A model generated the notes under the pieces. It worked only from the letters and a program-made list of their open reading frames with translations, had not been told where the DNA came from and ran no database searches. From positions 1-23,090 of IMG/VR virus record IMGVR_UViG_3300009593_000130: a stretch of DNA of 23,090 nucleotides; one strand, 5' to 3'. The stretch comes from a virus. Shown piece by piece: positions 14,991 through 17,273 of this stretch (position 1 is its first letter; every line of letters begins with the position of its first letter). Made by a program: the position numbers and the translations under genes.

Positions 14991-15451
14991 TTTTTGTGCA
15001 ATTTTTTAGTCAAAACATATTCCATCATTAGCAATGCATCACAATTCCAAAGAGTCACTTTTTGGTCTGGAAATAGTTTGATGCAATGCTCTTTCAATTC
15101 TTTTTTTCTATCTTTATAGGTTCTGGATTTTAATTCAAAATGTTTTTGCCATTTGACTGGTGACAGTTCTTTGACTGTAATATCACAACACTCCAATGCA
15201 TCTTTGATTCTTTGATAGTGCAAACATAATTTATGGATGTTGTGCCACCTCCCAGTCTGACAATCAATCTTTCTGAGATGCTGAGTTTCTACAAAAGCAA
15301 CAGCACCAGCATGACCCCAAAACTGTTCAGTGAGGTCAACAAACTCCTCTCTCAATTTATGGACAAAGACTTTGGAATCATCATTTGGTTTGATGCACCA
15401 GCCTCCAGACAATCCACAATCAATTGTGATGATTTTATTTTCTCCTGTCAT
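14987..15451 (-). CDS. RuvC-like Holliday junction resolvase
   Basis: A 154-residue RNase H-fold nuclease of the RuvC type. The acidic residues are visible: Asp11 in IITIDCGLSGG, Glu55 in VAFVETQH, and Asp138 (with Glu144) in LWNCDALLMMEY. The LSPVKWQKHF segment (96-105) matches the P..WK pattern common in phage RuvC-like resolvases. It should cut four-way junctions and branched replication intermediates before packaging. It overlaps the DnaC-like gene by 17 bases. All catalytic positions appear intact; the fold call is strong. Confidence 0.82.
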   Translation of the reverse strand: MTGENKIITIDCGLSGGWCIKPNDDSKVFVHKLREEFVDLTEQFWGHAGAVAFVETQHLRKIDCQTGRWHNIHKLCLHYQRIKDALECCDITVKELSPVKWQKHFELKSRTYKDRKKELKEHCIKLFPDQKVTLWNCDALLMMEYVLTKKLHKK

Positions 15452-16154
15452 GACCTCCCATTAATATCACATTAAACATTTCATTGATTCTGGATGCAAC
15501 CCTGTCTCCATATCTCTTTTTTATTTGAGAGATGGTCAGATTGGTTGTCAAGTAAGTTGGTTCTCCAGTATTTAAAAAAAGATTATACCTCTCCTCAATT
15601 ATAGTTTTAAAGACCTCCTCATCCTTTCCATAATGTTTCCCCATGTTTTCTGAGCCAAAGTCATCAAACATCCATCTGTGTTTTAAATACGTTTTAAGAG
15701 CCTGTGAGCCACTTTCATCATATTCCCTGACCACAGCATTGGTTGAGGTCATTCTAAAGGCTTGGGAGGACAGATTTTTGACAACATGTTTGAATAAGTT
15801 GAGCAACATGGTTTTCCCTGTCCCACAGTTTCCAGCTATCAACAGACCTTTCCTTGTTGAATACTGAGGAAAATTTCTCATCATCAACTCATCATCCTTT
15901 GAAAAATAGATGCATAAAAGATTGATGATGTTTTTGTTGGCATCATCAATTTGATAGTTGTATTTAGTCAATGAAGATTTTGTATAAAATTTAAATCCTC
16001 TTTTGACATTCTCATAATCAAAACAATCTGCTGGTCTGGGTCTTTCCTTTTTGACCTCTTTCCAATATTCTCTCTCTTTATCTGTGAGGACTCTTTTTGT
16101 TTTCTCCAAATCCATTTTCATGTTGGATTTTATTATGTCTGAAATTCTACCCAT
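15435..16154 (-). CDS. DnaC/IstB-like AAA+ helicase loader
   Basis: A 239-residue P-loop ATPase. Walker A is GNCGTGKT (108-115), Walker B WMFDDFG (161-167), sensor 1 YLTTNLT (201-207), and the arginine-finger region RYGDRVASRINEM (214-226). This is the signature order of DnaC and phage helicase loaders such as lambda P analogues. It would load the host replicative helicase onto the phage origin together with the initiator encoded just upstream, whose stop it overlaps (TAATG). No phage helicase gene is visible in the window, so use of host DnaB is likely. Confidence 0.85.
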   Translation of the reverse strand: MGRISDIIKSNMKMDLEKTKRVLTDKEREYWKEVKKERPRPADCFDYENVKRGFKFYTKSSLTKYNYQIDDANKNIINLLCIYFSKDDELMMRNFPQYSTRKGLLIAGNCGTGKTMLLNLFKHVVKNLSSQAFRMTSTNAVVREYDESGSQALKTYLKHRWMFDDFGSENMGKHYGKDEEVFKTIIEERYNLFLNTGEPTYLTTNLTISQIKKRYGDRVASRINEMFNVILMGGHDRRK

Positions 16155-16834
16155 TACACTTTGAATTTTTCCATCTCACCAGAATCAGAAATGGTCACTG
16201 ATTTGGTTTGATTTTTTGGTTTATAATTTTTCGCCCATGTTCCCAGTCTCCGACCTACTCCAAAGACTTTCTCTTTCTCATATCTCATGAGCCTGTCTCT
16301 TTCTCCATGCTCTGTCCAATAGTCAATGAACTCATTGAGCATTTCCCTGTCATATTGTGTCCTATAATCAGACACAATCTTTTGAGCAAATTTGACCTTT
16401 CTTTTTTCAATGTCTTTCTCTTTGTCTTTGTCTTTATCTTTAACACCTTGAAAGGTGCTTGGATGGTGCTTAGATGCACCATAAACAATTTTTAAGTCTT
16501 TGTCAATTAATTTGTATTTTAATAGTTTATCAATCACTGAGGCTGTGGCTCTGTTTGTTTCTTTTAGTGTCCCATATTGAAACTCAATAAAAGATGGAAG
16601 AAACCATTTCTCACCATCATCAAATTCAATCACATGGTGTTTAAAAATTTTCTTTGCCTTAACCTCATCAATATTGCATCCAATACGAATTGAGGCAACC
16701 TCAAAATCTGTGTGCCAGATTCCAGCATGGTCACAATCATCAAGAATGTAAAACCACAACAATTTGTGAGAGGCATCCAAACCCCTCACAAACTTTTTTT
16801 TCCACTTGTCAGTGTCAGTGAATCTCTTTGACAT
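16154..16834 (-). CDS. Replication initiator, DnaD/lambda O-like
   Basis: The ATG at 16834, just after the previous stop, is preferred over 16855. The protein has 226 residues in three parts. Residues 1-115 are a winged-helix-type N-terminal domain (KWKKKFVRGLDASHKLLWFY, HAGIWHTDFEVA) typical of phage replication initiators. Residues 117-146 are a Lys/Asp-rich linker. Residues 147-205 carry KIVSDYRTQYDREMLNEFID, YWTE and RYEKEKVFGVGRRLGTWA, a C-terminal helical motif I recall from Bacteroidota phage initiators. It should bind the phage origin and recruit the DnaC-like loader. The linker codons hold the repeats proposed as origin (16413-16480), the arrangement known from lambda O. Confidence 0.75.
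   Translation of the reverse strand: MSKRFTDTDKWKKKFVRGLDASHKLLWFYILDDCDHAGIWHTDFEVASIRIGCNIDEVKAKKIFKHHVIEFDDGEKWFLPSFIEFQYGTLKETNRATASVIDKLLKYKLIDKDLKIVYGASKHHPSTFQGVKDKDKDKEKDIEKRKVKFAQKIVSDYRTQYDREMLNEFIDYWTEHGERDRLMRYEKEKVFGVGRRLGTWAKNYKPKNQTKSVTISDSGEMEKFKV
16413..16480. repeat. Candidate replication origin: tandem iterons plus TCTTTN hexamer tract
   Basis: Plus strand: two head-to-tail 11-base repeats GGTGCTTGGAT (16454-16464) and GGTGCTTAGAT (16465-16475), with an opposing GCACC arm (16476-16480) that makes a 16-base hairpin element. Next to them are five tandem hexamers TCTTTC/G/A (16413-16442), an AT-rich asymmetric pyrimidine tract. All lie within the linker codons of the initiator gene. 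Iterons beside an AT-rich tract inside the initiator gene are how lambda-type origins are built. This is an inference from structure and position. Confidence 0.5.
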
Positions 16835-16835
16835 C

Positions 16836-17273
16836 TTATTGAATTTTGTTTGCATTCAACTTGATTGAGATGGTGTCACTGGTGTGCTTAACTTCTGGCA
16901 TTTGTAAAACCTCACCATCCTCTGTCACATTGGTCAATCCATTTGAATAGTTCCTAAATGCTGTTTTATATTTAGTCTCTATTTCAGTGAGATTGTCTTT
17001 GGCAAGTTTCCAGTCTGCTAATTTTTTGAAATTATATATTGCCCTCCCAGAAACTTTGGTGAATATATGGTCTCCTTTTGAAAATGATTTGTCCTCAAAT
17101 CTGGATTCATGGATTGCAACTTCCATCACTTGTTTTTGTGATGCTGAAATAATTGTTGAAAGTTCTTTGAGATATGCGATTGCCTCAAATGGAGACTCAG
17201 TCCCCTCCTCAACATTCTCAACCATTTTGCAAATGGTGTCAATCATTGAGTTGATTGTTGAATTGTTTGTCAT
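16836..17273 (-). CDS. Replication-operon protein of unknown function (145 aa)
   Basis: First gene of the replication operon, about 20 bases after the expected transcription start of the promoter at 17296-17327. It is a helical, soluble protein (SPFEAIAYLKELSTIISASQ, then FKKLADWKLAKDNLTEIETK). Length and helical content recall the Gp157-type proteins that often precede phage recombination/replication genes, but I cannot name the family with confidence. It ends one base before the initiator start (TAA-G-ATG). Confidence 0.6.
   Translation of the reverse strand: MTNNSTINSMIDTICKMVENVEEGTESPFEAIAYLKELSTIISASQKQVMEVAIHESRFEDKSFSKGDHIFTKVSGRAIYNFKKLADWKLAKDNLTEIETKYKTAFRNYSNGLTNVTEDGEVLQMPEVKHTSDTISIKLNANKIQ

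Follow-up and report, generated by a model that had tools for sequence, protein, structure and literature searches.

The repeat segment between the two domains of this phage's replication initiator gene is very probably the replication origin of the phage, carried inside its own initiator gene in the style of lambda and the RepA_N plasmids. The DNA analysed, hereafter the window, is one whole virus record of 23,090 bases in which the minus strand holds nearly all long genes. The repeats, their 11-bp phase, their conservation at the DNA level, their exclusive position in initiator linkers and their reuse in other initiators and other reading frames are directly established. The origins of most phages known only from metagenomes are unknown, and the signature described here would pinpoint the origin to about 70 bp. 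Phages to which it applies number in the hundreds, both uncultured and temperate, and among them are prophages carried by roughly one in ten complete E. coli genomes. We found no description of the 11-bp iteron in the openly licensed literature, and an earlier description is possible.

Layout of the repeat segment within the initiator gene

The initiator gene (16154-16834, minus strand) encodes a winged-helix N-domain, a linker specified by the putative origin and a helical C-domain; the repeat segment lies within the codons between the N- and C-domains. The internal start at 16834 is favoured over an alternative upstream ATG at 16855 because relatives begin at the conserved MSKRF found at 16834. 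The ATG at 16855 overlaps the 3' end of the upstream gene (16836-17273). The initiator stop overlaps by one base the gene directly downstream (15435-16154, minus strand), which encodes a DnaC-like helicase loader (match to phrog_50, E 1.9e-18). The helicase loader that belongs to an ori of the lambda type is thus represented by the DnaC-like gene adjoining the initiator, and a Holliday-junction-resolvase-like gene comes after it.

On the coding (minus) strand, the segment reads GGTGCATCT-AAGCACCATCC-AAGCACCTTTC-AAGGTGTT-(AAAGAN)5. The outer inverted half-site GGTGCATCT (16472-16480; GGGGCTTAC or a similar sequence at this place in L031, L072 and L006) is followed by direct iteron 1, AAGCACCATCC (16461-16471), direct iteron 2, AAGCACCTTTC (16450-16460), and the inner inverted half-site AAGGTGTT (16442-16449), which is AAGGGGCT in most relatives. 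An initial annotation of the window had reported two tandem 11-base repeats, an opposing GCACC arm and five TCTTTN hexamers. The tandem repeats lie exactly where it put them (GGTGCTTGGAT at 16454-16464 and GGTGCTTAGAT at 16465-16475), and the arm (16476-16480) and the five hexamers (16413-16442) were likewise confirmed. It had not included a second inverted copy, CACCTT on the plus strand at 16444-16449. The four half-sites form a symmetrical set, inverted, direct, direct and inverted, all on an 11-bp pitch. The hexamer array AAAGAT, AAAGAC, AAAGAC, AAAGAG, AAAGAC (16412-16441, minus strand) is a candidate unwinding or single-strand-binding element, and belongs to a purine-rich tract (16396-16441, minus strand) that is 87% purine over 46 nt of the coding strand.

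These features depart clearly from chance within the record, and the repeat observation itself is confirmed. The 22-bp tandem is the sole match in the record at up to 3 mismatches, and none of 100 shuffles gave one; the tandem-plus-inverted score was reached in 1 of 3000 trials in which the gene's codons were resampled with the protein kept. The record-wide maximum of lag-6 periodicity falls at the hexamer array, where the record's highest 46-nt value of purine asymmetry also starts. A motif-blind scan of the window returned one cluster, the initiator-linker segment, and iteron matches elsewhere in the window were scattered single sites with one mismatch, forming no cluster. In duplex stability the array ranks at the 9th to 17th percentile, no more than a moderate degree of instability, and it is not unusually AT-rich. 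The AT-rich unwinding tract that had been proposed is accordingly replaced as a candidate by the purine-rich hexamer array. No DnaA boxes were present near the repeat segment, and GC skew of the window showed no turning point there, which is uninformative for a 23-kb linear piece with nearly all long genes on one strand.

Conservation of the linker as DNA

A protein-based search of IMG/VR yielded 250 relatives, from which 80 loci (L001-L080) were kept; the six search peptides included KDKDKDKE and so tilted the set towards KD linkers, although many of the loci recovered lack that sequence. In relatives, the linker combines a pair of AAGCCCCTTNN iterons of 11 bp with an inverted copy and with a hexamer array, in the layout AAGCCCCTTAN AAGCCCCTTNN AAGGGGCT followed by AWRGWT-type hexamers, with a core slightly different from that of the window. 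A motif-blind script, calling any 8-mer that recurs 11 bp on with no more than 1 mismatch, has a G+C of at least 4/8 and is followed by a lag-6 array within 70 nt, was run over the 650,025 bases of L001-L080 on both strands. It found 71 clusters, and 71 of 71 lay in the initiator linker. Among the nine loci missed, L051 and L080 are truncated by contig ends, six (L011, L012, L013, L025, L032 and L058) have variant or single iterons, and L040 is the sole locus of the 80 with no recognisable repeat in the linker. L040 (5001-5648) encodes a close initiator relative lacking iterons and hexamer array; the origin of this locus may have shifted to another place.

Exact 8-mer repeats ahead of the array were counted in the non-redundant initiators: a lag of 11 is present in 18 of the 29 Bacteroidota-phage-like genes and in 23 of the 27 proteobacterial-type genes, and lags other than 11 and 22 occur in at most 2 genes each. 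A lag-6 array follows the iterons in 28 of the 29 non-redundant relatives and in all 27 proteobacterial-type initiators. Retention of the repeats as DNA at the linker across relatives, the check that the initial annotation had set, therefore came out positive among the initiator relatives. That the DNA is conserved there while the peptide drifts supports, at the level of sequence comparison, the placing of the origin in the initiator gene.

Codon usage separates selection on the DNA from selection on the peptide. Within the iterons, Pro is encoded by CCC in 19 of 19 cases (against 15% of the Pro codons in the rest of these genes), Lys by AAG in 23 of 24 (31% elsewhere), Ser by AGC in 22 of 24 (12%) and Gln by CAA in 14 of 14 (70%), counts that overstate independence in their raw form as the sequences are related; for the window-L001 pair alone, codon constraint has p = 0.09. 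The mean synonymous identity of the N-domain is only 0.49, and synonymous sites outside the iterons in these genes are near saturation. All three frames of the iteron DNA are in use, giving the peptides KPLxSPLxG, EAPSKPLxRG and SPFEAPSKGL, which means that the DNA itself has been kept by evolution. The peptide encoded by the hexamers varies by phage (KD, MDMV, EQ, GT, GIGN or QG), and L222 has an ACAGGA array read in another frame than in its relatives, as GTGTGT. The segment offers a clean case in which the function of the DNA sets the protein sequence, whatever the reading frame.

It is accordingly very unlikely that the repeats are a by-product, with no DNA function, of a low-complexity charged KDKDKD linker with biased codons. 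Charged linkers are common and KD codons do force AARGAY hexamers, but an 11-bp period cannot come from a protein repeat because 11 is not a multiple of 3. The DNA layout also stays constant across divergent peptides (KD, MDMVMV, EQ, GT, GIGN), the rare codons CCC and AGC are fixed, and the L222 hexamers lie in another frame. Frame changes and codon freezing together largely refute the by-product explanation.

Occurrence in other phages and a second kind of initiator

The exact pattern AAGCCCCNNNNAAGCCCCNNNNAAGGGG was found in 77 stretches among 2.9 million viral contigs and in 11 in bacterial genomes, mostly within initiator-like genes; the few exceptions fell between genes or in the reverse reading of genes of this kind. 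Acinetobacter Vieuvirus phages have the iteron in a gene annotated 'DNA replication protein O'; E. coli prophages and the E. coli phage PhiR5_2 have it between cII and dnaC, Escherichia phage Fraca in 'primosomal protein I', followed by primase/helicase, and a Klebsiella phage upstream of dnaC. A 54-nt probe had a match in 540 of 5426 complete E. coli genomes. The Acinetobacter, E. coli and Klebsiella iterons are in other reading frames with a different hexamer-encoded peptide, and in these phages the iteron-bearing gene mostly sits immediately upstream of dnaC, where lambda has O. A DnaC-like loader directly follows the iteron-bearing gene in the window and in the Acinetobacter, E. coli and Klebsiella phages; in PhiR5_2 this arrangement is found downstream of cI-cro-cII. 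A search of named phages with a 34-nt module mostly returned Felix-O1-type terminator-like sequences outside genes, which were taken as chance matches.

A different reading is that the segment acts as RNA, its hairpins in the initiator mRNA controlling translation or stability. The segment does fold better than shuffled sequences in the window (z -3.4) and in L072 (z -5.2). Proteobacterial-type members, which have direct iterons only, fold no better than chance (L219 z +0.7, L246 z +0.6), and the orientation of the copies flips between relatives, so that the constants are the 11-bp phase and the array rather than pairing. An RNA function is extremely unlikely.

Several side observations concern further repeats. 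In the proteobacterial-type initiators of L205-L256, another, inversely oriented 11-bp iteron pair (GAAGGGGCTTCGAAGGGGCTTC) lies within winged-helix codons, in the EGASKGL codons about 90 codons upstream of the linker; GGG is used there in 25 of 26 cases (22% elsewhere), CTT in 24 of 26 (17% elsewhere) and GAA in 26 of 26. The conserved EGASKGL peptide may be partly dictated by the DNA. In L166 and L167 (Clostridium ganghwense contigs), an AAGCCCC/AAGGGG module adjoins TTACTTATT-type repeats, which hints at an origin module reaching Firmicutes. Flavobacterium phage 11b (L174, 2572-3210) and Cellulophaga phage phi13:2 (L175, 1945-2607) combine the C-domain of the window's initiator with a different N-domain. 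Both have CAAC-type repeats in place of AAGCCCC iterons, phi13:2 with an ACAGAT/ACAGTA hexamer array encoding TVTD; these probably represent another origin built to the same plan.

The protein had been called a DnaD/O-like initiator. Its N-domain is a predicted winged helix whose PHROG links to such groups are weak (phrog_678 'replication initiation O-like' is matched by 5 of 29 relatives and the DnaD-like phrog_5708 by 1 of 29), and Pfam recognises it as neither DnaD nor O. Pfam scans of the window initiator gave no O match and a weak DnaT match (E 0.016); they reported no match to the RepA_N domain (PF06970), to which a distant link is possible. The predicted model of the N-domain has the winged-helix order of elements, and its best structural matches are CRP-type winged helices with Z below 5 (VIA-align). 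For models of either initiator kind, none of the PDB matches by Foldseek fell below E 0.001; no lambda O, DnaD or RepA_N chain was among the VIA-align and Foldseek matches, which is uninformative either way. A sequence search of solved structures with the initiator returned nothing.

Alternatively, the segment could be an array of sites bound by some other protein or serving some other end, such as an autoregulation operator, packaging or partition, or an array bound by a host factor. The last gains some credit from the finding that the two initiator kinds that have the iteron in common show no significant hhalign profile match (E 0.16, 0.23). Against it, the sites occur almost only in initiator genes beside a loader, in several host groups, and the hexamer array always follows them. 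Moreover, one distant N-domain family may recognise the site, as phrog_25711 matches the N-domains of both kinds (L171, E 2.2e-5; L172, L257) and their predicted N-domains share the same helix and strand order. The two kinds may be distant homologues, for which these similarities are suggestive only. Relatives exchange C-domains freely while the N-domain and the iterons stay together, and this fits the N-domain as the iteron binder. We consider a binding array for some other protein or purpose unlikely.

Returning to the origin reading, changes in the iteron core are coordinated among copies. The window and L001 have a CACC core in every copy, and most relatives have CCCC. Between L082 and L072, four bases differ in the module, one per half-site at the equivalent position, and the inverted copies carry the complementary changes. 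Either a shift in binding specificity or gene conversion between the binding sites would be expected to leave this pattern in the sequence, and selection on the peptide accounts for it poorly. An iteron variant, ATCCCCCATTT, with an ATGGGGG inverted arm occurs in L032 (5001-5657) and L160 (4010-4816; Pseudanabaena phage Pan5); in L032 it is on the 11-bp pitch, another core change common to the copies. Such loci pair iteron variants with initiator variants in a naturally occurring series, on which shifts in initiator specificity can be studied.

On balance we slightly favour the view that a purine-rich hexamer array and AAGCCCCTTNN iterons phased at 11 bp together constitute one origin module of phages of Bacteroidota, Proteobacteria and perhaps other hosts, which travels with the winged-helix N-domain, is read in any frame and tolerates both C-domain exchange and coordinated core changes.

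Proposed initiation mechanism and comparison with known systems

Initiation at this origin might proceed as follows. The winged-helix N-domain would bind the two direct iterons and the two inverted half-sites, each one helical turn apart, and initiator oligomers on one face of the helix could then put the DNA under strain or wrap it. If lambda is a guide, the purine-asymmetric hexamer array next to these sites would open and its single strand be held. Gene order and protein family suggest that the C-domain would recruit the DnaC-like protein encoded immediately downstream, which in turn would load the host replicative helicase.

The closest parallel is lambda, in which the iterons bound by O lie midway in the O gene itself, a neighbouring strand-asymmetric AT-rich tract opens and P delivers DnaB (PMC7466680, PMC5043065). 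Both lambda and the window have iterons and a strand-asymmetric region with purines on one strand, in the window a candidate for unwinding, mid-initiator gene, followed by a helicase-loader gene (PMC7466680, PMC5043065), and in PhiR5_2 the iteron-bearing gene occupies the O position, after cII and before dnaC. The design had been described as exactly that of lambda. Iterons inside the initiator gene are indeed common to both, but those of lambda number four, are longer and are accompanied by an AT-rich tract, whereas the window has 11-bp iterons of mixed orientation, with inverted outer copies, and a hexamer array. In addition, the window's loader is DnaC-like, unlike lambda P, and its initiator has no significant Pfam O match.

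The DnaA-trio of bacterial oriC is a short-period array beside initiator boxes that guides single-strand binding (Richardson 2016, cited in PMC5043065). The hexamer array resembles it as a short-period repeat array beside initiator boxes, a functional analogy only; its period is 6 rather than 3, and no DnaA is involved.

In the RepA_N plasmid pSK41 of Staphylococcus, the Rep boxes are central in rep, within the codons of a dispensable linker that joins a DNA-binding N-domain and a C-domain, both structurally DnaD-like (PMC5703833). Like the putative origin of the window, that of pSK41 lies inside the linker-coding part of the initiator gene (PMC5703833). pSK41 differs in being a plasmid with different Rep boxes and a C-domain that binds DnaG primase, and we found no RepA_N sequence link. 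In the chimeric Rep of pPR9, a phage-like N-domain and the origin have been swapped as one block of about 500 bp into a pSK41-type rep (PMC5703833). Although the N-domain of pPR9 is a pfam13730 HTH, the exchange fits an N-domain plus internal origin acting as a module, a likeness in plan. The plan of an origin internal to the initiator gene is thus already known, and the 11-bp iteron origin appears from its sequence to be a variant of it.
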